A program made the position numbers and the translations under genes. DNA of 50,349 bases from a virus. This document shows, one piece after another, positions 29,654 to 41,012 of this stretch. A model generated the notes under the pieces. The model searched no databases. It was not told the DNA's origin and was given only the letters and a program-made list of their open reading frames with translations. Each line of letters opens with the position of its first letter. Position 1 is the first letter of the stretch. Location: the IMG/VR virus record IMGVR_UViG_3300032331_003172, positions 1 through 50,349 of that record; one strand, written 5' to 3'.

Positions 29654-31240
29654 ATGCCTAATACCAATATACAAGCACTTAATTACGGTGACAACCAAAA
29701 TCAGCTGATAAACAAGCTGAATAATAATTTTGACGAGGTTGTTGAATTCCACGGAGGAAGCCAGGGTTTGACTGGACCAACAGGAAGTAGAGGTCCAATT
29801 GGTGAATCTGGTACTATCGGAATAACTGGTCTAACTGGACCTAGAGGAACAAGATGGTTTATTAACGCTAGTGTTAGTCCATCAGGCTCTGGAAATTATG
29901 TGGTCGAGGGAGATTATTGGATAGAATCTGTTACGGGACAAATCTACATTTTCACCGATACCGGGTGGACATACACTGGATATAACTTCAATGCAACTGG
30001 ATCTCTATTTTCTTCCATAACTAGTAATTATGATGCTTCCATGAATCCCGCATCTGGACTCACTGGATCCTCTATTGTAGAGAATCAAGTTAATCCGGAA
30101 AAATACACATTTGTAGTATCTGATAATGCACCAGAGTCGGACATTTTAAATGAGCTACTTTCTAAATTTCTTATTTCTACAAATCCTAATAGTAACTCTG
30201 GTCCTGTTTTAGAGTTTTCTAAAAGCAACATAGAGGATGGTACGATCTCTGATTATTTACAACATCCTACTTTTAAATGGGCTAATTTCACTTCAGGTGA
30301 CGATTCTATAATACTTAACGTTCCTGGAGGTATTTTTACTTTGGGTGCAAGTGGAGGATTTCAATCCTCTTCGAGAGACTATAATATAAATGCTTCAACT
30401 TCATTGTCGGTAGAGTATGGTGCGACATCCGGATCTGGAATATTTTCAACCGGTGGATTTCAAATTAATGCACCTTCCGGTGATTTCAATTTAATAAGTT
30501 CTTTTTATAGTGTTACCGGAGGTTCCGGAACCTTCTCTAAACCTATAGAATCTACTTCAACACTTCCTGGTTCTGTTTCTTCCCTTTATGTTTCTATAGG
30601 AGGAACGTCGGGATTTAGAAGTACTAGATCTGGTGACAACTCAGGAACACTCTCGCATAATGTCTACCACATTAAACTTGAAAATAATGACGGAACCCAA
30701 TTTTATTTGGACACCAAGGGAAAGCTTAAGACCAATAAGATCGACGAGGGACTTACAATTCCGGTTAATACCCCTGGTATAACAGGCGCTAATAATTGGT
30801 TTGTGTTATCTGCACCATATACTCCTGATAGTGCATACACTTCTTTGGAAAATGGGAATAACATAATATTTGCTCCGAATATAGGATCTACTGCTTCGTA
30901 TGTCGGGGTTGCTTTTAACACTCTGATTGATTATTCGCTCGGTTCGACCGGAGGGGTTCTTCCTGGAGAATCTATAGATATAAATGTTTACTGTGGATCT
31001 GATCAATATGTTGGTTATTGGGAAAATCAAGTAGATGGAGCTAATTATACTGGATTTAAGTATATTGGATACGGTTCGACTGGAGGGGTTACCACAGCGG
31101 TTACATTTCCATTTAAAGCTCAAGCTATAGATTTTACACTAACCAAGGGAGTAACTGGTCCTTTAACCACAGTTTTTTATAAAGCATATAACACTGGAGT
31201 TGGTGGAGTTGGTGCCTCGGGGGGATATTTCAGTTTCTGA
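29654..31240 (+). CDS. Collagen-like fibre protein 1 (528 aa)
   Basis: It is the first of three tandem paralogues. Residues 12-32 carry the shared attachment motif (GDNQNQLINKLNNNFDEVVE). Residues 38-66 are a short Gly-X-Y collagen-like stretch (GLTGPTGSRGPIGESG and on). Next comes RGTRWF, and then a conserved WIES/Y-W pattern before a long beta-rich shaft (GFQINAPSGDFNLISSFYSV). The collagen piece probably trimerises the N-terminal anchor, with the rest forming a shaft and tip. It starts two bases after the 1823-residue gene. No Hint domain is present, unlike paralogue 3. I infer a tail or baseplate fibre. Confidence 0.75.
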   Translation: MPNTNIQALNYGDNQNQLINKLNNNFDEVVEFHGGSQGLTGPTGSRGPIGESGTIGITGLTGPRGTRWFINASVSPSGSGNYVVEGDYWIESVTGQIYIFTDTGWTYTGYNFNATGSLFSSITSNYDASMNPASGLTGSSIVENQVNPEKYTFVVSDNAPESDILNELLSKFLISTNPNSNSGPVLEFSKSNIEDGTISDYLQHPTFKWANFTSGDDSIILNVPGGIFTLGASGGFQSSSRDYNINASTSLSVEYGATSGSGIFSTGGFQINAPSGDFNLISSFYSVTGGSGTFSKPIESTSTLPGSVSSLYVSIGGTSGFRSTRSGDNSGTLSHNVYHIKLENNDGTQFYLDTKGKLKTNKIDEGLTIPVNTPGITGANNWFVLSAPYTPDSAYTSLENGNNIIFAPNIGSTASYVGVAFNTLIDYSLGSTGGVLPGESIDINVYCGSDQYVGYWENQVDGANYTGFKYIGYGSTGGVTTAVTFPFKAQAIDFTLTKGVTGPLTTVFYKAYNTGVGGVGASGGYFSF

Positions 31241-31246
31241 TATATA
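31239..31246 (+). promoter_or_regulatory. Candidate promoter core GATATATA
   Basis: GATATATA starts at the last two bases of the stop codon of the previous gene and ends 21 bases before the start of collagen-like protein 2. The spacing matches copies at 1023, 39803 and 45428. Confidence 0.4.
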
Positions 31247-31267
31247 GCATAAGCTAAGTAATATAAA

Positions 31268-33013
31268 ATGCCAGATTTAAAATTATTAAGAATAGAAGAC
31301 GGGGATTCACAAAAAGTTTTTGTTGATAAGATTAACTCAAACTTTTCTAATATTCTGTCTTTTGGTGGAGGACCCTACGGGAGAATAGGAAAAAAAGGTC
31401 CTCAGGGTGACCAAGGAACATTGGGACCAGCTGGATCCTATGGAGATCCAGGACAGAGAGGTAATATATGGACGGTTGGAGGAACATCATACCCATCATC
31501 TCCTTTTAATGATGACTTCTGGATAGACGTTTTTAATTTCAATAAAGTCTATCAATATGAGAATGGATCTTGGTTAGATTACGGTTTAAATCTATCTGCT
31601 CAGGATCTATTTAGAATATATGGTCCTTTAGTTACTGAATCAAGCGGGGTTTCAAATAGGAACGGATATTTTATAACTTCACAAATACCAGAGAGTTATA
31701 CCGTTGTATTAAGCGATAACAATTTCGATTCTTCTCTTTCTGGAAATAGTGTCTATACTTTTAACCCCCAGTATTCTAAGATGGTGCTATCGGTTAACAG
31801 CAATATAGAAACAAGAAAACTTTTAGAGTTCACTAAGGCAGATTATCAAATAGATCCAGCATTCTATTCTAAAACTCCAAGATTTCTTTGGACAACTGGA
31901 GCAACTGCTGACAGAGGTCAATATGGATTGAAATTTGAATCCTATGGTGGATTTTCTTTAGATATACAAAATGCAGCTTTAAACCTAGAATCAAATACTT
32001 CTAGCATAAGACTGAATTCAACCGGTTTTAATATCAATCTAAATTCAACTAATCCACTTACTATGACCTCTGCCGGAGGTAATATAGTTTTTGATTTTAG
32101 CTCAACTGGAACTGCTTTATTTTCAGCCTCCAATATAAAATACGCGAATAATACATTCACCATCCCGGTAAGAACCCTTTTCATATCCGGATTCAAAGAT
32201 GCAAATCCACCCCTTTGGCTGAATACCACGGTCGGGAGCGCATCTGGACTAAGACACAAGTCAACCGTTTCAACAAATAGGAACTCTTTCTTAATGAGGA
32301 TCCTTGATATAACAGATGTTAATTCACCACAGTCAATATTCAACGTTTTATCAAACGGTGACGTTTATTATAACAGAAAAATAGATTCAGTTCAACCGTC
32401 TCAGAGTGTAACTAACAGCGTTTCTGCAAATGTGACTGATAATTACGGAACCGTATCTTGCTATTGGACTACAGTAATTCCAACAGTGGCTATGACTGCT
32501 CAAGGACAAAGTAATATGCTGATGTCCAACAACGGTGTTGATTTCGTTTTCGATCCTTCTAGATTTAATGGTGACGGTTTGACAGGGAGTAACGCTGGAA
32601 TATCTCTATGGCTTCCTTCAGCATTTGGCGGTACTGGATCAAACCGGGGATGGTTAAATCTTTTAGATGACCATGAATGTATAACAATAAGGGTTAAAAG
32701 TTCTAGCAGTAATAAGATGTTCAGGTATCTTGGAATTAACACTAACACCACACAGAATTCTACATTCCCCGATGGGACTACTAGTCCCGGAGCAGTTGGT
32801 AACGGACAGGTAGTTGATTTAAGCAGTGGGGCTAGTGTCGGAGCATCTGCGGTAGATTTCACTATAATGAACATATCAGGAACAGGACCAACTGGAGCTA
32901 GTTACAGATGGTTTAAAGTCTATTATTCTGCTTATGGTCCAAATCTATGGCTAGGATTTGGTGATCATGTAAAATGCGGGGTATTATATACAGTAAATTC
33001 AACACCTTTTTAA
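31268..33013 (+). CDS. Collagen-like fibre protein 2 (581 aa)
   Basis: This is the second tandem paralogue. Residues 11-32 show the attachment motif (DGDSQKVFVDKINSNFSNIL). The collagen-like tract is at residues 33-66 (GKKGPQGDQGTLGPAG, then GDPGQRG), followed by NIWTVGG and DDFWIDV, which align with paralogues 1 and 3. The remaining ~500 residues are a beta-rich shaft with Asn/Ser repeats (IRLNSTGFNINLNSTNPLTM) and a compact C-terminal domain. Charged X and Y positions (Lys, Asp, Arg) differ from paralogue 1, so the collagen segments may promote homotypic rather than mixed trimers. It is 27 bases after paralogue 1. Confidence 0.75.
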   Translation: MPDLKLLRIEDGDSQKVFVDKINSNFSNILSFGGGPYGRIGKKGPQGDQGTLGPAGSYGDPGQRGNIWTVGGTSYPSSPFNDDFWIDVFNFNKVYQYENGSWLDYGLNLSAQDLFRIYGPLVTESSGVSNRNGYFITSQIPESYTVVLSDNNFDSSLSGNSVYTFNPQYSKMVLSVNSNIETRKLLEFTKADYQIDPAFYSKTPRFLWTTGATADRGQYGLKFESYGGFSLDIQNAALNLESNTSSIRLNSTGFNINLNSTNPLTMTSAGGNIVFDFSSTGTALFSASNIKYANNTFTIPVRTLFISGFKDANPPLWLNTTVGSASGLRHKSTVSTNRNSFLMRILDITDVNSPQSIFNVLSNGDVYYNRKIDSVQPSQSVTNSVSANVTDNYGTVSCYWTTVIPTVAMTAQGQSNMLMSNNGVDFVFDPSRFNGDGLTGSNAGISLWLPSAFGGTGSNRGWLNLLDDHECITIRVKSSSSNKMFRYLGINTNTTQNSTFPDGTTSPGAVGNGQVVDLSSGASVGASAVDFTIMNISGTGPTGASYRWFKVYYSAYGPNLWLGFGDHVKCGVLYTVNSTPF

Positions 33014-33016
33014 AAG

Positions 33017-35320
33017 ATGCACTTTAATACTAAATATATTTTTCAGGGAGACTCAGAAAAAGAGATAGTCAAAAAGATAAACTACAATTTTGATCAGATT
33101 CTTTCTTTCGCTGTTGGCCCGGACGGACACGTAGGTGACAAAGGTCCAACAGGATACGCCGGACCTGCGGGAAAAAAAGGCGTACATGGAGGATCTGGTG
33201 CAAGGGGATCTTTATGGTTTAAGCAATCAACCGAGCCATCTTCATCTATAAGTAACCAATTCGATAAGTGGATAGATGAATCAACAAGTTCCAACGAGGT
33301 TAAAGAATATGGCCCAACAGGAAGCTGGAGTTACACAGGATACTCAATGTTTTCCTCCACTTACTTCAAATCGTATTCAGGAATATCTGGACCTGCTGGG
33401 GTTACTGATAAATTCGTTATAGGATTTTCAAATTCTGGCGGATTAACTGCAAGTGAAACGAGTCTCGTTCTTTCCGACAAGACATTGGATATAACCAATT
33501 CAAATCCTAATAGAAGTAAACTGGTCATTTCAACTCTTGATCAAACTTCCACCCCTGTACTTACATTTACGAAAACAACTACAAATACTACGGGTGCTCC
33601 TTCGTTCTATTGGAAAAATATGGGAGCAGATACAGGTTTAGTTCTAAAATCTTCAGGCTCTTCCATTTCTTTTGTTTCTTCCCTAGGCCTAACCATAGAT
33701 TCAAGTACAGCTAGAAGTATAATCTTTGGTACTTCTATGACTATGACAGCTAACAATGATATAAAAATTTCGGGATTAGGAGATTTTATACTTGGGACTA
33801 ATACTACTATAGGAACTGGATCTGCTTTTGCCATACTTACTAGCAACATAGAAATGGCATCATCGTATTATAGATCCAATGTACCTACTAAAATAAATAA
33901 TTCGCAGTCCGGAGTTTTTACTTTGGATAACACCAAAAACGTAACTGGAACTTCAACATCTTATGGCATACAGATGGAAGTTCAAAGTCAAGTTAATTTA
34001 AGGGGATTTGAATTTTTAGACCTAACTGGTTCTGCTATATTTTCGGGGAAAATAAAAGGTCCGGTGTCTTCTGGTAAATCTCTTCAAACAACTTTTGGCT
34101 CAACTGGGAATGCAGCAGCAGGATCTACAGGGGGCCCTTATTTTTATCATGTCAAAAGGCTTAAAGAAATACGCTCTGATGGTAGCACAGTGACTTGTAG
34201 ACAGTATTTCAATTCAAGCACTTCAACTACTTATAACATACCTAATGTAATAGATCTAGACTCTTTGACACTGTGGGATTCCAATTACATCATGGTAACC
34301 CCAATAGGTACTGCTTTAAACTCATGGAATCCTCCAACAACATACGGAGTTTATTTAAAGATTCCTGCCCCTCTTTCACCTACAGCTCCTTTATTTTATA
34401 ACGGAACTGCTACAAATTACAGAGTTTTCGTTAATGACATAAACCCAAGTAACAGTGCGCCTAACAACGACATTAAAATAGTGGGTTTAGTTTGGGACTA
34501 CACTAGATACACAGGAACTTCAGCAACTACGACCACTTATTATCTGACCTTTCCTAGAGAAAGAGACATGAATTTTTATCAGAGCTACGGTTGCTCTTAT
34601 GTTGATCTTATATGGATGCCACTCACGAGTTCAACCAATGCTACACCTAAAATATTTTGGAAAACGTGTAACGGGAGTGCAGGGTTTATCAACGTCACCA
34701 ACTACTACACTGTGGGACAATCAGTTCCTCCTAGCTCTGGCGGTGGAAGTGTCGGAAATCCGCTATCTTCTTCCGGTGGAGGTGGCGTATCTTCTGGAGG
34801 CGGTGGTATCGGTGGCGGAGGCTATGGAGGCGGATCCCCTTCGGGTGGAGGCTGCTTCTTGCCTGGAACTCTTATAACTATGGCTGATAGATCTAAGAAA
34901 CTAATAGAAGAAATTTCGATAGGAGATCTTGTGATGTCTTATGATTTCAACTCTGAAAAATTGACAGAGGATGTTGTTTCCGAAACATTTAATCTCGTAA
35001 ATAGCAATATAGTAGAATTTGTTCTAGAAAACGGGACATCTTTAAGAAGCACTTCGGATCACCCATATTGGGTTGAAAATAAAGGCTGGTGTTCTTTTGA
35101 TCCCATAGCAACTAAAGATAAATACAGCATAGATTCTGCTCTTATAGAGGAGGATGATCTATTAACTTCGGATGATCTTAAACAGATTAAGATAATTTCG
35201 ATTAAAAAACTGGAAATGTTAGAAAGCAAAGTGATAAACTTCCATGCGCTTAAGAATCAGAATTATTTTGCAGAGGGAGTCCTAGTTCATAATAAACAAA
35301 TATTCATCCCTGCGGAGTAA
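33017..35320 (+). CDS. Collagen-like fibre protein 3 with C-terminal Hint domain (767 aa)
   Basis: This is the third paralogue. It has the attachment motif at residues 11-31 (GDSEKEIVKKINYNFDQILS), the collagen-like tract at about 34-64 (GDKGPTGYAGPAGKKG) and RGSLWF. A beta shaft runs to about residue 570. A Gly/Ser-rich linker (about 573-612, including SSGGGGIGGGGYGGGSPSGG) leads into a Hint fold starting at C613 (CFLPGTLITM). Hint signatures are IGDLVMSYD (block A/B), TSDHPYW with H682, and the terminal YFAEGVLVHN with H758-N759. Eight residues follow (KQIFIPAE). With Lys after Asn, normal extein ligation is not possible, so autocleavage, thioester transfer or cross-linking is expected. Whether it acts during virion assembly is inference. 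It is three bases after paralogue 2. Confidence 0.8.
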   Translation: MHFNTKYIFQGDSEKEIVKKINYNFDQILSFAVGPDGHVGDKGPTGYAGPAGKKGVHGGSGARGSLWFKQSTEPSSSISNQFDKWIDESTSSNEVKEYGPTGSWSYTGYSMFSSTYFKSYSGISGPAGVTDKFVIGFSNSGGLTASETSLVLSDKTLDITNSNPNRSKLVISTLDQTSTPVLTFTKTTTNTTGAPSFYWKNMGADTGLVLKSSGSSISFVSSLGLTIDSSTARSIIFGTSMTMTANNDIKISGLGDFILGTNTTIGTGSAFAILTSNIEMASSYYRSNVPTKINNSQSGVFTLDNTKNVTGTSTSYGIQMEVQSQVNLRGFEFLDLTGSAIFSGKIKGPVSSGKSLQTTFGSTGNAAAGSTGGPYFYHVKRLKEIRSDGSTVTCRQYFNSSTSTTYNIPNVIDLDSLTLWDSNYIMVTPIGTALNSWNPPTTYGVYLKIPAPLSPTAPLFYNGTATNYRVFVNDINPSNSAPNNDIKIVGLVWDYTRYTGTSATTTTYYLTFPRERDMNFYQSYGCSYVDLIWMPLTSSTNATPKIFWKTCNGSAGFINVTNYYTVGQSVPPSSGGGSVGNPLSSSGGGGVSSGGGGIGGGGYGGGSPSGGGCFLPGTLITMADRSKKLIEEISIGDLVMSYDFNSEKLTEDVVSETFNLVNSNIVEFVLENGTSLRSTSDHPYWVENKGWCSFDPIATKDKYSIDSALIEEDDLLTSDDLKQIKIISIKKLEMLESKVINFHALKNQNYFAEGVLVHNKQIFIPAE
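34853..35293 (+). other. Hint (intein/hedgehog-type) autoprocessing domain, residues C613-N759
   Basis: The domain begins with a Cys directly after a Gly-rich linker and spans 147 residues to the terminal His-Asn. The Thr-x-x-His motif is TSDH, and the end motif is VLVHN followed by Lys. There is no homing-endonuclease insert, as in minimal inteins, hedgehog Hint domains and bacterial intein-like domains. Confidence 0.8.
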
Positions 35321-35343
35321 TTTATAATATAAAAACAATAAAA

Positions 35344-35610
35344 ATGGCTTTATTAACAAAAAAAGAAAAGGATACGATCCTAAAATTCTCAGAAACCTAC
35401 ATCAAGCTTCATGGGGAGATAGTCGAAGTTGAGAAGCAGATAAAAGAGCTGGAGCAAAGATCAGGAGATCTAGTAAACGATCTTCAGTGTTGTAGAAAGA
35501 ATGAGTCCGAATTTATGAGTAAGCTCGAAGCCAAATATGGCCCAGGGAAGTTAAACCCTATGACCCTTTGTTGGGAAAAAGAAATTATTATAGATGAAGT
35601 ACTTCAGTAA
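35344..35610 (+). CDS. Small coiled-coil protein (88 aa)
   Basis: The protein is nearly all helical, with heptads from about residue 15 to 50 (EIVEVEKQIKELEQRSGDLV). It has two Cys in the middle (QCCRKN), a GPGK turn and no membrane segment. It is preceded by a TATAATAT element 13 bases upstream of the start and overlaps the next gene by 17 bases, implying translational coupling with that membrane-anchored protein. The two may interact. The family is not recognised. Confidence 0.65.
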   Translation: MALLTKKEKDTILKFSETYIKLHGEIVEVEKQIKELEQRSGDLVNDLQCCRKNESEFMSKLEAKYGPGKLNPMTLCWEKEIIIDEVLQ

Positions 35611-36436
35611 AGAAACACCAGGAAAAGTTTTCAGCCTGTTATCTAGCAGGATTGGACTTTTAGTAGTTATAGCAATCTTAATTATGCTATTTCTAAAACA
35701 ATGCAACGAGAGAGCAGCAATCGAGGCAGAAGCAAAAAGAGAGCACAACAATTATCTGGCAGCTCAGGATAGTGTTAGAACTATAAGTAAAGATAAGGAC
35801 CACCTCATTCAGGAAAAATCTGCTTTTCAACTTAAAGTTTCAGAGCTTTCTAAAGAGCAAAAAGATCTAGTATCTCAACTAGGACTAAAATCAAACGGTA
35901 GAGGAAATACACCTAGAACTGTTATTGAAACCGTAGTTGAGTATAGAGATACCGGAAGAGTGGTTTCTTCGGTTATTAAAGACGCATCTGGTGAATCTAT
36001 TAATTTTGAATACGCACCGGAGATGAAGGGAAAGAATAAATTAGTTATATCAGGAAAAACCCCATATAAAGTAAATCTTTTTAAAGATCCCGAAGACAGC
36101 ACTAGATATTTAACCTCTGTTGATCCTGGACATACTGATTTAACAATTGCACAGAATATAGAATTGGTTACTGGAATATATCAAGATCCTAAGTCAAAGA
36201 GAATTATGACTAGAGTTAGCACAACTTTTCCTAATTTAACTTTTAGTGATGTTAACTCTTTTGATATTACTGATAACCCAGAAACAAGAAAAAGTCTTAA
36301 GAACGCCAGAAAAGAATTCGGAATTGGATTCACAATGGGTTACGGAATGGCTTTATCAACAACAGGAGTTAAACCTGGATTAATATTAGGAGTTGGTTTC
36401 CACTACACCCCTAAGTTTCTCCAATTTGGAAAATAA
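35594..36436 (+). CDS. Membrane-anchored coiled-coil protein, spanin-like candidate (280 aa)
   Basis: An N-terminal membrane segment (IGLLVVIAILIMLFLKQC, about residues 20-37) is preceded by basic residues, which suggests the bulk is periplasmic. Residues about 40-95 form coiled coil (HLIQEKSAFQLKVSELSKEQ). A beta-rich domain follows. The last ~40 residues are Gly/aromatic alternating (GIGFTMGYGMALSTTGVKPG, then LILGVGFHY) like an outer-membrane-type hairpin. A single inner-membrane anchor, periplasmic coil and outer-membrane-like end would suit a protein spanning the envelope, such as a lysis spanin or an anchor used during infection. No endolysin or holin is seen nearby, so this is uncertain. 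The start overlaps the preceding gene by 17 bases. Confidence 0.55.
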   Translation: MKYFSKETPGKVFSLLSSRIGLLVVIAILIMLFLKQCNERAAIEAEAKREHNNYLAAQDSVRTISKDKDHLIQEKSAFQLKVSELSKEQKDLVSQLGLKSNGRGNTPRTVIETVVEYRDTGRVVSSVIKDASGESINFEYAPEMKGKNKLVISGKTPYKVNLFKDPEDSTRYLTSVDPGHTDLTIAQNIELVTGIYQDPKSKRIMTRVSTTFPNLTFSDVNSFDITDNPETRKSLKNARKEFGIGFTMGYGMALSTTGVKPGLILGVGFHYTPKFLQFGK

Positions 36437-36444
36437 TTAGAAAA

Positions 36445-39246
36445 ATGGCATATAGTACATCATCAAAATACGTTCAGCTCACTCCATATCTTTTAATGGA
36501 GTATATGTATGCTGATCAACCTACCCCGGAAACATATTTTACGAATACCGGAGGATCCACTGTTACCTTTGATAAATTGATCAATGGGTACATGTCTGAT
36601 GCTGTACAGATTTTTAATCCTCCAGCGGATTATAGCATAACCCAAAACGGTCCAGAAAATAGTGTGGTTAAGATAGCTGAGAATTCATTTGTGACCTTAG
36701 ATTCTAACCTTATAATCCCATTTAATGATTATTCGGAATATCTTACTGACACCACGAATCTTCCGATAACCTTTCCGTATAACTTAAGTGTTGTTTATGA
36801 CACTATCAGATACCACCTCAGAGCGGGATACAATCTTCAGAATATAGATGGACTTATTATAGGAATAGATTTTCAGGATGTCGATTCTACTTATGTTACA
36901 ATTTCTCAGATACTTTTAAAGAGAGGAACTGAACAGGAGTACACTTTAAATCCCAATCCTGTAACAATTGGATCAAACATCTATGACAAGTTCTTTGAGA
37001 TCAAGATACCTAGTTTAAAGAACATGAACGACACGTATCTTGCAACCCCAGCAAACTTCCAATCTGTTTCATTAGCGGGTTTATTAAGTGCTAGTGGAAA
37101 CGGGTTTGTGTATGGAGCTCCGATGAGAATATCTCTTTGGCAGGTTCAAAGTACTGATGATTTTGCAGGTTATGACAGATATAATTCTTCCAGAATAGCT
37201 CTTCTATCTTTAGAGGAGGAAGATCCTTTTGCAAACATAGGAGCCGTGATACAAGAATCCGATAAAGGAGAATTCTTTGAATATTTTGCAACCGATAATG
37301 AAGGATTCATAGAGGATTTTATTCTTTTCCAGAATTCAATAGGAAATAGCTATTACATAAGTCATCAGATAGAAGTACTTGAACAAATTGGTGCTGCAAT
37401 TATAGAAACGTCTAGGTTTGAATCTATACAGACAACTGCTTATGATACACCTAACTACTATAGACCTATAGTTAGAAATGCCGCCTATGCTGCATCTTTC
37501 TTTCTAAGATACACTATGTCTCTGGTTAATAATAAAGACCAAACAAGGGTAATTAGAATAGCATCATATTCATCTAATAATCCTTCTCAGTGGGGATTAA
37601 ATATAACTCCAATTCAACTTAGTACTTTTCCGCAAGTTCAGAAAATATACAACAAGGTTTACAGTCAGCCCCAAATTAAACTTGGAGGGTTTAACACTCC
37701 ACAACCTAAGGAGATATTGAAATTCACGAATGTTTACATCCAGCAGAATTTAATTAATTCCACTGCGACTAATCTGGTTCTTCAAAACGGATCTCTTACC
37801 GAGACCCTTAGTTCAACCCCTAGTGTTGCAGTTGGTACTGGTAAATTAACAGTAACCCTTTCTCCTTTTGATAATTATTATAAATTCAAATTTATTAAGA
37901 GTGGAAGTGACGGAACTCCTGTTTCTGTAGATCTTAGCAATTCGCCTATTTATAATTTGGCCTTCCTGGATAATCAGGGAAATAAAATTTATGTTCCTAC
38001 TCTTTCCGATCCAACTATAGCTAGACCTTCTTCAGGAGAATTGGCTTTTAAAGTTGATGAATCAACATCAGTTAAGGTTCTTAAATTCAGTGACAGAAGA
38101 TTCTTTATAGTAAGTGGAGGAGGAAATCCACTAGGTGCTACAGGATCAACGGTGGCTCTGGCTTCAAGTGTTGAAGCTGTTGCCTCTGGAAATAGTGAAA
38201 GATTAAGAGCAGTTCCTATTTCTAGTACAGATCCTGCTATAAATCTAGCCACTCAGAATTATAAAAGTCTTAACACGATCACTAAGACAACTAACACTTT
38301 AAACCCAGACTCAACTAAAAACAATCCTGCTAGTGTTATCTATTGGGGATATTGGAAGAAAGAAGGAGAATCTGATTTTGTAACAACCGTTACCACGGCA
38401 GGTGCAACTGGTGCAACTGGTGCTCCAGCTCCTGTAAGTAGTGGAACACAGGTTCTTGGAGATCTTGAGCCAGTAGTTATTATTCCTAGAAAACCATTTA
38501 TCCGTACAATTAAACCTCCTGTTAGAGGCCAAATTCTAGAATCTAATCTTGGATTAACCGGACCTGTAGCGGTAAGCTCAGCAACAAATCGGTTAACAGG
38601 AAACGCTTTGATTTCTGCCCTTAGCGCTCAGATTCAAGGGTACAAAGATTCTGGATGGAAAGATCAAACAATTATAGATTACTTCCTAATACCAGGAAAT
38701 CCTGGGTATATCCAATATCCTGGATTAACTAAAGCTGAATTCATAAAAGCAGCAAGTGGAATTCTTTCTCCTACTTCTATCAGCGTTCTAACAAGACAAT
38801 CCATCTCATCAAGTGGAGGCGCTAGTGGATGTCCAACACCAGATATGAAAATTTATTTAGGTAAGGATAATTGGGTTACTGCAGGAAACTTAGTTAAAGG
38901 AATGGAGGTTTACACAGTTCATGAAAAAACAGGGGAGTGGGGAATTTACAAAGTTGTTCATTCTGAAATAATCAAGCAACCTGTGTTGGCTGTTAAAATA
39001 GGTGACAAGAGAGTAACCGTTTCAGCTTCCCATAAATTCTTAACGGATTCCGGAAAATATGAAGAAACTATGGATCTGAAGATTGGATCTCTCATAAGAA
39101 CTATAAATGGAACTGCCATCCTATCAGAGAAGAACTACATTGGTGAATCTGATGTTGTTAAAATAGAGGTACAGGGAGCACATACCTATGTAATGGAGGG
39201 GTTTGTTTCTCACAATAAAAGAGCAGCAGAAAACGTAGTAGAATAA
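36445..39246 (+). CDS. Virion-type protein with C-terminal Hint domain (933 aa)
   Basis: Residues 1-640 are beta-rich with no recognised fold (start YVQLTPYLLMEYMYADQPTP). A short GATGATGAPAP linker near residue 655 precedes VVIIPRKPF and a helical stretch (about 715-785, LISALSAQIQGYKDSGWKDQ). A Ser/Gly linker (SSSGGASG) leads to the Hint domain from C796 (CPTPDMKIYL). Hint signatures are LVKGMEVYTV, the SASHKFL motif with H863, and HTYVMEGFVSHN with H923-N924, then nine residues (KRAAENVVE). The N-terminal region does not resemble collagen-like protein 3, so the Hint unit was gained independently or exchanged. It starts eight bases after the membrane-anchored gene and sits six bases before a possible tail-tube-fold gene. 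Confidence 0.75.
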   Translation: MAYSTSSKYVQLTPYLLMEYMYADQPTPETYFTNTGGSTVTFDKLINGYMSDAVQIFNPPADYSITQNGPENSVVKIAENSFVTLDSNLIIPFNDYSEYLTDTTNLPITFPYNLSVVYDTIRYHLRAGYNLQNIDGLIIGIDFQDVDSTYVTISQILLKRGTEQEYTLNPNPVTIGSNIYDKFFEIKIPSLKNMNDTYLATPANFQSVSLAGLLSASGNGFVYGAPMRISLWQVQSTDDFAGYDRYNSSRIALLSLEEEDPFANIGAVIQESDKGEFFEYFATDNEGFIEDFILFQNSIGNSYYISHQIEVLEQIGAAIIETSRFESIQTTAYDTPNYYRPIVRNAAYAASFFLRYTMSLVNNKDQTRVIRIASYSSNNPSQWGLNITPIQLSTFPQVQKIYNKVYSQPQIKLGGFNTPQPKEILKFTNVYIQQNLINSTATNLVLQNGSLTETLSSTPSVAVGTGKLTVTLSPFDNYYKFKFIKSGSDGTPVSVDLSNSPIYNLAFLDNQGNKIYVPTLSDPTIARPSSGELAFKVDESTSVKVLKFSDRRFFIVSGGGNPLGATGSTVALASSVEAVASGNSERLRAVPISSTDPAINLATQNYKSLNTITKTTNTLNPDSTKNNPASVIYWGYWKKEGESDFVTTVTTAGATGATGAPAPVSSGTQVLGDLEPVVIIPRKPFIRTIKPPVRGQILESNLGLTGPVAVSSATNRLTGNALISALSAQIQGYKDSGWKDQTIIDYFLIPGNPGYIQYPGLTKAEFIKAASGILSPTSISVLTRQSISSSGGASGCPTPDMKIYLGKDNWVTAGNLVKGMEVYTVHEKTGEWGIYKVVHSEIIKQPVLAVKIGDKRVTVSASHKFLTDSGKYEETMDLKIGSLIRTINGTAILSEKNYIGESDVVKIEVQGAHTYVMEGFVSHNKRAAENVVE
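38830..39216 (+). other. Second Hint autoprocessing domain, residues C796-N924
   Basis: This domain has 129 residues from a Cys after a Gly/Ser linker to the terminal His-Asn. The block-B His is in SASH, where the first residue is Ser in place of the more usual Thr. The terminal motif GFVSHN is followed by Lys, as in the domain at 34853-35293. No endonuclease domain is present. Confidence 0.78.
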
Positions 39247-39252
39247 TAGATT

Positions 39253-39801
39253 ATGATTTTAAACCCGAAAGCTAATAGTTTTTACTTTAATTTCCCTAAA
39301 GGATTCTTTAGTGAGAGAGTAACTCAAAAGTATGAAAAATACATCAAAAGGCAACCAATACCTTTTGATAATGTGCAGCAGTATGTAAACAGCACAATTC
39401 AATCTGTAGGTTTCCCGAGTATATCTATAGACACAGTTGAACAAGTTAGGCTACTAGGGAAAAAGGTAAACTATAAAAGTTCAACCCCTATCCAGGATTT
39501 GTTCTCAAGAGATTTCTCTATTAACTTTAAAATGGCAGACGGGTTTGTGAATTACTTCATAGTTTTAGACACTGTCTTAGATTTTCTTAATTTTGGGAAC
39601 CCCCAGTTATTTATACAAGATTTACCTTTAAGAATAATGGATAACGAAGGGAACGTCCTCTTTTCGTTGACCTTCCAGGAGGTAATTTTCAGCTCCCTAA
39701 ATAACATAGATCTATCTTATACTAACAATAGCCCCAACTTTACCACATTCGCACTAGGATTTAGATGTAACTACATAGACATAGTTACGGAGATAAAGTA
39801 A
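39253..39801 (+). CDS. Putative tail-tube-fold / baseplate tube protein (182 aa)
   Basis: This soluble mixed alpha/beta protein begins with a basic N-terminal region (FSERVTQKYEKYIKRQPIPF). The pattern of a conserved Pro in IQSVGFPSISID, a central strand pair (RDFSINFKMADGFVNYFIVL) and a late strand (FTTFALGFRCNYIDIVTEIK) recalls the tail-tube fold shared by T4 gp19 and the tube-initiator gp54. The resemblance is structural in flavour, not a clear sequence match. It closes the structural block, six bases after the Hint protein, and the next gene has its own GATATATA motif. Another small baseplate protein is possible. Confidence 0.4.
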   Translation: MILNPKANSFYFNFPKGFFSERVTQKYEKYIKRQPIPFDNVQQYVNSTIQSVGFPSISIDTVEQVRLLGKKVNYKSSTPIQDLFSRDFSINFKMADGFVNYFIVLDTVLDFLNFGNPQLFIQDLPLRIMDNEGNVLFSLTFQEVIFSSLNNIDLSYTNNSPNFTTFALGFRCNYIDIVTEIK

Positions 39802-40066: not shown

Positions 40067-40786
40067 ATGTCAAAAGACAAAAATTTTGTAGGTATAGACT
40101 TTTCGATAAACTCACCAGCCTTCTGCTGTTTTAAGGACGGCAAATATGTCTGGGGATCGTTAACTAGATCCGATCGAACAAGCGAATCTTTAACAAAAAA
40201 TTCAAAAAAACCGTTTTCTGTTCTAAGCACAGAAACCGATTTTCACCTGCATTTCTTGGATAAGAAGGAACTTCCTGAGGACTACACAGGAAGGGAGAGA
40301 ACTAAGATAGTTTATTTTAACGAGATTGCAGAAAAACTGTGGAATAGCATTTTAGAGATAATGGAGGATTCTGAGTTCTTTGTAGCAATGGAGGGACTAA
40401 GCTTCTCTTCAAACGGAAATGCCCTAATAGACATCTCGATGGCAACTGCTCTTTTAAGAAAAAAAATTATAGATAGAGTGAGTGTTGATAACTTTTATGT
40501 TTTTTCACCGACCTCTATTAAGAAGTTTGCTCTAAAGGGAAATGCTAAAAAGGACGAGCTTTACGAAGCTCTTTGCAAAGTAAGCGACGGAACAAATCTG
40601 AAGAACTTTACTAATATATTAGAGTTCAACAAATCTGAATGGATAACTCCAAAAAAGGTTGTTAACAAACCAATTGATGATATTGTGGACGCAACTTGGA
40701 TAACTTTATATTTAAAGGAAGAATTAAAGGGAAAATTAAAGGAAATTTATGGAATTAAAGGAAATTTTGAATCAACGTCTGCTTGA
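40067..40786 (+). CDS. RuvC-like / RNase H-fold nuclease
   Basis: The product has 239 residues from the ATG at 40067. An in-frame ATG at 40016 would add 17 residues that overlap the previous gene and do not look conserved. The RNase H-fold acidic set is visible: FVGIDFSINSP with D11 on strand 1, FVAMEGLSF with E109, and a C-terminal KPIDDIVDA with D204/D205/D208. This order and spacing match RuvC-type Holliday-junction resolvases and their phage relatives, metal-dependent nucleases that resolve branched DNA before packaging. The neighbouring recombination genes (UvsY, UvsW) support that role. It overlaps the truncated gmhA start by 38 bases. Confidence 0.75.
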   Translation: MSKDKNFVGIDFSINSPAFCCFKDGKYVWGSLTRSDRTSESLTKNSKKPFSVLSTETDFHLHFLDKKELPEDYTGRERTKIVYFNEIAEKLWNSILEIMEDSEFFVAMEGLSFSSNGNALIDISMATALLRKKIIDRVSVDNFYVFSPTSIKKFALKGNAKKDELYEALCKVSDGTNLKNFTNILEFNKSEWITPKKVVNKPIDDIVDATWITLYLKEELKGKLKEIYGIKGNFESTSA

Positions 40787-41012
40787 GGCCTCTGAAATAC
40801 TAAATGCCTTTTCTACAAACGAGGAGTATCTAAACTCCGTAACAGAGGCGGCCGAAATAATCATTACAGCTTTACAGTCTAACAATAAAATAATCACTGC
40901 GGGGAACGGCGGGTCCATGTGTGATGCTATGCACTTTGCTAGCGAACTTAGTGGAAACTATAGAGATGATAGAAGTCCTTTACCTACTATTGATATATCC
41001 AATTCATCTTAG
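40749..41012 (+). pseudogene. gmhA: Truncated phosphoheptose isomerase (GmhA N-terminal part)
   Basis: The 87 residues align by eye with the first ~88 of ~192 residues of GmhA (sedoheptulose-7-phosphate isomerase, SIS fold). The N-terminal helix matches (LNQRLLEASEILNAF). The substrate-phosphate loop AGNGGSMCDAMHFASEL keeps the GGS serine and the catalytic Glu corresponding to E65. The frame stops at TAG right after DISNSS, where the family continues into the second half of the sheet and the catalytic His near residue 180. Nothing downstream in any frame restores it. The start at 40749 lies inside the RuvC-like gene but matches the family N-terminus, so it looks genuine. It is likely a decayed metabolic gene. 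A small regulatory fragment cannot be excluded. Confidence 0.75.

Follow-up and report, generated by a model that had tools for sequence, protein, structure and literature searches.

Two nearby genes in a large uncultured phage encode putative virion proteins, here called P1 and P2, that each end in a Gly/Ser linker followed by a domain that starts with cysteine and closes with His-Asn, with Lys next and a tail of 8 or 9 residues in all. What are these domains, and what might they do to the protein ends that carry them? The window analysed is the whole of IMG/VR record IMGVR_UViG_3300032331_003172 (50,349 bases), a single record. PHROG names were obtained for genes of baseplate-wedge, tail-tube, ssDNA-binding and helicase type, which suggests that the source is a contractile-tailed, T4-like phage. 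The features of the locus are as follows.

29654 to 33013, plus strand: two fibre-like genes (528 and 581 amino acids [aa]) without a Hint, with an N-terminus of the same kind as that of P1
33017 to 35320, plus strand: P1, fibre-like protein of 767 aa, with a short collagen-like Gly-X-Y stretch near the N-terminus and a C-terminal Hint; collagen and tail-fibre matches are weak
34727 to 34852, plus strand: P1 Gly/Ser linker, residues 571-612 (42 residues), ending SPSGGG (from the sequence)
34853 to 35293, plus strand: P1 V-type Hint, C613-N759, 147 aa, without endonuclease (Pfam, profile, model and Foldseek)
35060 to 35062, plus strand: codon of the P1 block-B His, H682 (TSDH; from the sequence)
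35288 to 35293, plus strand: P1 H758-N759 (VLVHN; from the sequence)
35294 to 35317, plus strand: P1 tail after HN, KQIFIPAE (8 aa; from the sequence)
35344 to 36436, plus strand: an 88 aa protein and a 280 aa protein with a hydrophobic N-terminus, between P1 and P2, found in most but not all relatives
36445 to 39246, plus strand: P2, 933 aa, with a beta-rich body, a helical segment (719-783) and a C-terminal Hint
38794 to 38829, plus strand: P2 linker, residues 784-795, ending GGASG (SSSGGASG), with low pLDDT at 784-794
38830 to 39216, plus strand: P2 S-type Hint, C796-N924, 129 aa (sequence match, profile and model)
39031 to 39033, plus strand: P2 block-B His, H863 (SASH; from the sequence)
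39211 to 39216, plus strand: P2 H923-N924 (FVSHN; from the sequence)
39217 to 39243, plus strand: P2 tail after HN, KRAAENVVE (9 aa; from the sequence)
39253 to 39801, plus strand: tail tube protein (phrog_45, E 9e-10), adjoining P2 here and in relatives

V-type denotes the P1 kind of Hint (VLVHN), and S-type denotes the P2 kind (SHN). The original prediction had described both proteins from the letters and open reading frames, and its coordinates, key residues (C613-N759 and C796-N924, TSDH and SASH, HN then Lys) and tails proved exact. A search with the P2 body retrieved 73 related loci, most of which keep the order fibres, P1, two small genes, P2 and tube. The neighbouring genes and the type of sequence suggest that P1 and P2 may be part of the virion. 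Downstream, an 87 aa open reading frame (ORF) at 40749-41012 has an end point that matches that in a near relative (L002, 11897-12160); it appears to resemble the beginning of a GmhA-type sugar isomerase.

The C-terminus of P1 matches the Pfam families Intein_splicing, PT-HINT and Hint (E values of 6e-7 to 2e-5), all three under their curated cut-offs, and PT-HINT exceeds its cut-off for P1 in a genome-wide search. No ubiquitin family is among the Pfam matches of P1. A profile of the six-member P1 Hint family finds two solved bacterial-intein-like (BIL) domains, BIL2 (6y75, E 2e-25) and the Clostridium thermocellum BIL (2lwy, E 3.5e-15). The AlphaFold2 model of the P1 Hint has a pLDDT of 93.6, and Foldseek places four BIL2 chains (6tmm/6y75) at the top (TM about 0.88, E about 6e-13), with 2lwy next. 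The Pfam family AXH (ataxin-1) exceeds its own cut-off on the C-terminus of P1 in the same scan and also on Hints of L137, L160, L065 and L027, which suggests that AXH is kin to Hint or that its model is mixed.

The only cysteine of P2 is C796. Full-length P2 matched no Pfam family, and its Hint alone matched only Intein_splicing (0.013), a family matched by 14 of the 15 S-type family members at E values up to 1 (best, 3e-7). Residues 786-924 match a phage TerL mini-intein (E 5e-6), and the profile of the 15-member S-type family finds 2lwy (E 6.7e-6), the top credible solved sequence match. The top two rows of that PDB sequence search (Tako8) were discarded because they add up weak matches to repeats. 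The model of full-length P2 is modest (pLDDT of 66), but its Hint part (801-920) reaches 76 to 89 by tens of residues and matches inteins, BIL2 and 2lwy. The P2 body is similar to uncharacterised phage proteins, and its model has no convincing fold match among solved structures. Block B of the S-type reads S-x-S-H, with S-x-x-H in a few of the copies, and so differs from T-x-x-H. Thus, predicted folds together with profile and sequence matches bear out the expectation that both C-termini are Hint-like, and this identity is firm.

The two Hints belong to families that are related at the profile level (Prob 98.2) but have no significant similarity in pairwise BLAST (best E, 0.50). A recent duplication of one Hint within the phage is rejected, as the two copies are of different families. 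In the best tree, the S-type Hints of P1 and those of P2 fall on two sides, with support of just 48/66. The bodies of P1 and P2 are likewise without similarity (best E, 0.34), as had been stated.

Type A BIL domains end in HN, form the thioester and are cleaved by Asn cyclisation (PMC4031507). In a review, BIL domains are reported in variable, non-conserved parts of proteins. P1 and P2 combine a predicted Hint fold, Cys1 and a C-terminal HN with no Cys, Ser or Thr at the position after Asn (+1), and the Hints of the clade are accessory ends placed after linkers. The BIL-like identity and the absence of a +1 nucleophile that had been proposed are well supported, through the matches to 2lwy and BIL2 and the residues after HN in the clade. 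BIL2 of the Tetrahymena thermophila protein BUBL1 (6tmm, 6y75) is the top match of the P1 Hint in both fold and sequence (26-27% identity) and shares the HN end and the lack of a +1 nucleophile (Met in the solved construct). However, BIL2 is described as lying between ubiquitin-like domains of a ciliate protein, whereas the P1 Hint is the last domain of a fibre-like phage protein and has Lys at +1. Similarly, 2lwy shares with the S-type an HN end without a +1 nucleophile, as given for type A BILs (PMC4031507), but differs in host protein and position; no mention of an HN-(x)-K junction was found in the BIL sources consulted. The TerL mini-intein of Corynebacterium phage PotatoChip (29% identity over the P2 Hint; 134 aa) differs in lying inside a terminase and in having Thr at +1, which fits a splicing intein.

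Other assignments were rejected. A chance motif is inconsistent with the homology, fold and selection. A class 1 splicing intein would need Cys, Ser or Thr where both window proteins have Lys; moreover, there is no conserved insertion site, the position is C-terminal and 9 of the 73 loci have a Hint on P2. B-type BIL domains lack the intein-like block G (PMC4031507), but HN is present here. The Hedgehog Hog domain is described as having a sterol-recognition region after the Hint. Sterol transfer of that kind is rejected, since the partner region is absent and Asn is present, and the hedgehog-like option of the original prediction is dropped, with HN present and merely 8 or 9 residues after it.

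Across the 73 related loci, the Hints are accessory, exchangeable modules that terminate the products of these two genes. The nine Hints on P2 comprise seven S-type and two V-type (in L198, P2 runs off the contig), while P1 carries a Hint in 19 of the 62 loci that have both genes whole (15 S-type and 4 V-type); the remaining 11 of 73 loci, with a gene missing or cut, are omitted from this table. Among 46 distinct P1 and P2 pairs, 6 have Hints on both proteins, 7 on P1 only, 1 on P2 only and 32 on neither. Many orthologues without a Hint stop approximately where the linker starts, and others have different ends. The 39 Hint-less P2 entries of these pairs include 38 without Cys past residue 560 and 33 without any Cys. 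At least seven changes for the P1 Hint and at least three for the P2 Hint are needed on the P2-body tree, on which L152 and L164 are sisters whose P1 ends are an S-type Hint and an unrelated Cys-containing module, respectively. Most relatives are without Hints, and many phages therefore do without them. A shared maturation step for the two proteins, as originally proposed, is weakly supported: P1 and P2 Hints are associated (Fisher p 0.001, ignoring relatedness, with four well-supported independent pairs, too few to test), but many relatives carry only one Hint.

Other variation was observed at the same genes. In the P1 orthologues of L164, L183 and L185, the Hint is replaced by another C-terminal module of approximately 110 aa, which in L063 follows a Hint. 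This module opens with a Cys motif, e.g., ICNLLYRQG or ICTELHRQG, just past the linker, and it was left unnamed by NCBIfam (L164, L183 and L185), Pfam (L164, L183 and L063) and PHROGs (L164 only). The P1 orthologues of L160 and L163 reach approximately 1,280 aa through repeats inserted before the Hint, with a DUF5122 beta-propeller in L160. The P2 gene is present as two ORFs in L169, L171, L172, L181, L204, L205 and LR756500 (L008).

The 30 rows of clade Hints, window included, represent 21 distinct sequences; only identical sequences were collapsed, and the remainder are still related (the window and its near relative L133 are counted separately). Cys1 and HN are kept in all 21. All 15 distinct S-type Hints of the clade are 129 aa long and gapless, with C1, H68, H128 and N129 invariant, and their His and Asn codons vary synonymously. 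Values of dN/dS are 0.05 to 0.13 in six of seven Hint comparisons, three of which have a dS of >1, and the value is 0.32 (nine differences) for the P1 Hint between the window and L133. Three body comparisons gave 0.03 to 0.06, so that the bodies are slightly more constrained than the Hints. Clade Hints thus seem mostly to be under purifying selection and look as though they are kept active.

A lysine close behind HN is also conserved. The +1 residue in the 21 clade Hints is Lys in 11, Ile in 7, Val in 2 and Leu in 1, but never Cys, Ser or Thr (p 0.005 assuming independence, which does not hold). Lys is found at +1 or +2 in 20 of 21, the exception being P1 of L137, and Gly-Gly precedes Cys1 in 12 of 21. 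A virome scan with the pattern CFxxGTxIxMADG gave at least 120 loci and at least 115 distinct units, and the corresponding cellular scan gave at least 117 loci and at least 124 units, 56 of them mini-Hints; these are sample counts. Block G was called by a regular expression, and the +1 counts omit units without a recognised HN (51/115 viral and 66/124 cellular). Among the matches listed, viral mini-Hints have Lys at +1 or +2 in 43/52 (6.9 expected, given how often Lys occurs at +4 to +12) and Cys, Ser or Thr at +1 in 0/52, whereas long, endonuclease-sized viral units have Cys or Ser at +1 in 12/12 and Lys at +1 or +2 in 0/12. Lysine thereby separates these two viral groups among the matches listed, a simple and testable point. 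Cellular mini-Hints among the matches listed, at loci that may include prophages, have Lys in 33/56 and Cys, Ser or Thr at +1 in 8/56; the lysine junction is consequently neither exclusively viral nor specific to virions. A virome scan for S-type Hints, with a search pattern that did not include the lysine, gave 90 distinct Hints among the matches listed, of which 86 have Lys at +1 or +2 (4.1 expected), 2 have Cys, Ser or Thr at +1 and 81 have a Cys1. Thirteen of the 90 came from the clade, and outside it the lysine count was 73/77 (3.5 expected) among the matches listed. Mini-Hints ending in HN-K or HN-(hydrophobic)-K are common in viruses and present in cells. A location within 40 aa of the stop was found, among the matches listed, in a minority of viral mini-Hints (8/52) and in 37/85 closed S-type Hints (24/72 outside the clade).

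An arrangement similar to the combination of a Gly linker, Cys and HN-K that the original prediction had proposed searching for elsewhere, but with HN-IK, exists on another phage tail protein. In Bacteriophage sp. MT835519, a J-like tail fibre protein (phrog_5616, E 2e-72) ends, like P1 and P2, in a Gly-rich linker and a Hint with Cys1 and an SHN-IK end as its last domain, but its body is unrelated and the record is unannotated and marked unverified. A tape measure protein (L044) also has a Hint in its C-terminal part, and the L065 protein, which matches Peptidase_S74 below threshold, has two. In a PHROG scan of the parts preceding the Hint in eight other viral proteins, only two matched anything, and the wider Hint-bearing set is thus mostly not established as structural. 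Tandem Hints are present in L027, L051, L053, L065 and L077, in which the first ends HNK or HNR and the next Cys1 lies approximately 1 to 21 residues on. Collagen-like or fibre-like proteins of L003, L004 and L010 (Achromobacter phage 2-1) carry C-terminal Hint-like domains without His-Asn, which could be capable of the first step of Hint chemistry only.

Taken together, these features suggest, with a probability of roughly 0.7, that P1 and P2 carry functional A-type BIL-like Hints at their ends, which process the protein C-terminus. In the proposed mechanism, the Gly612-Cys613 bond (Gly795-Cys796 in P2) would be converted to a thioester on Cys1 with the aid of the block-B His. Cyclisation of Asn759 (Asn924 in P2) would then free the tail of 8 or 9 residues, and the thioester would be resolved by water or an amine, because there is no Cys, Ser or Thr at +1, and the Hint shed. 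The flexible Gly/Ser end of the protein would be left free or be joined to an amine of the freed tail, a lysine or another molecule. The analysis establishes the similarity of fold, the catalytic residues, the selection, the exchange of modules and the conserved lysine; the occurrence and timing of the reactions, the acceptor used and the place of both proteins in the virion are inferred. Points against this mechanism are the lack of Hints in most relatives, the dN/dS of 0.32 between the window and L133 for the P1 Hint, the bodies being slightly more constrained than the Hints, the deviating block B of the S-type, the minority of near-terminal positions in the wider scans and the modest model of P2. 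The thioester-based release or attachment originally suggested fits the published chemistry of the nearest solved relatives: type A BILs can ligate through a freed amine, although cleavage products predominate (PMC4031507), and BIL2 forms a lysine isopeptide, its ubiquitin-like domain being conjugated to other proteins without ATP (PMC8616854).

An amine acceptor is attractive because the lysine is conserved, and a special case of the processing mechanism is that the lysine at +1 or +2, or one of a partner protein, attacks the thioester to give an isopeptide to that protein or to the protein's own tail. The lysine counts in the clade and in both virome scans, the Gly-Gly before Cys1 in just over half of the clade copies and the isopeptide chemistry of BIL2 (PMC8616854) argue for such ligation. 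Nevertheless, the solved BIL2 construct has Met at +1, cellular mini-Hints share the lysine, and the residue might serve only to assist Asn cyclisation, or its sharing might be neutral; ligation to lysine is attractive but unproven, and it is a tentative possibility. A broader proposal, which seems rather unlikely, is that mini-Hints with HN-K or HN-(hydrophobic)-K form a chemical class of their own, with Lys in place of the +1 Cys, Ser or Thr, and that on tail proteins they form ATP-free, ubiquitin-like isopeptides between C-terminus and lysine, building or decorating virions or bonding them to the host surface.

Three other explanations seem improbable. Peptidase_S74 is a self-cleaving C-terminal chaperone of tail fibres, with a fold and chemistry that differ from those of Hint. 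Like that module, Hints here terminate fibre-like proteins, and they could be folding aids that are removed after assembly; the L065 protein, with a Peptidase_S74 match (just under the cut-off) downstream of its two Hints, agrees with this. However, a long, flexible Gly/Ser linker between body and Hint would be poor geometry for nucleating a trimer, and with most relatives managing without a Hint, the explanation appears improbable. It is less probable still that the Hint is an inactive fold serving as a structural or binding tip: other fibre-like proteins of phages (L003, L004 and Achromobacter phage 2-1) do end in Hint-like domains that lack HN, but clade copies retain Cys1, block-B His and HN, residues for which a simple tip would have no use. 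An origin as selfish or decaying inteins stranded at gene ends would explain the patchy distribution and the repeated changes on the P2-body tree, but it is very improbable in view of the purifying selection, the invariant active-site residues, the lack of an endonuclease, the position after linkers at non-conserved ends and the conserved lysine close to where an intein has its nucleophile.

A-type BIL domains are already known, and the possible novelty lies in the recurrence of such domains, with a lysine junction, on proteins of tail type. A search of one open-access library found neither this nor any description of virion tail proteins that carry Hint or BIL domains. If active, the Hints of P1 and P2 would provide ATP-free trimming or covalent attachment of tail-protein tips, which would change the view of assembly and adsorption in such large phages and place the purpose of BIL domains in a testable setting. 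The tails could then also become ligation tools.
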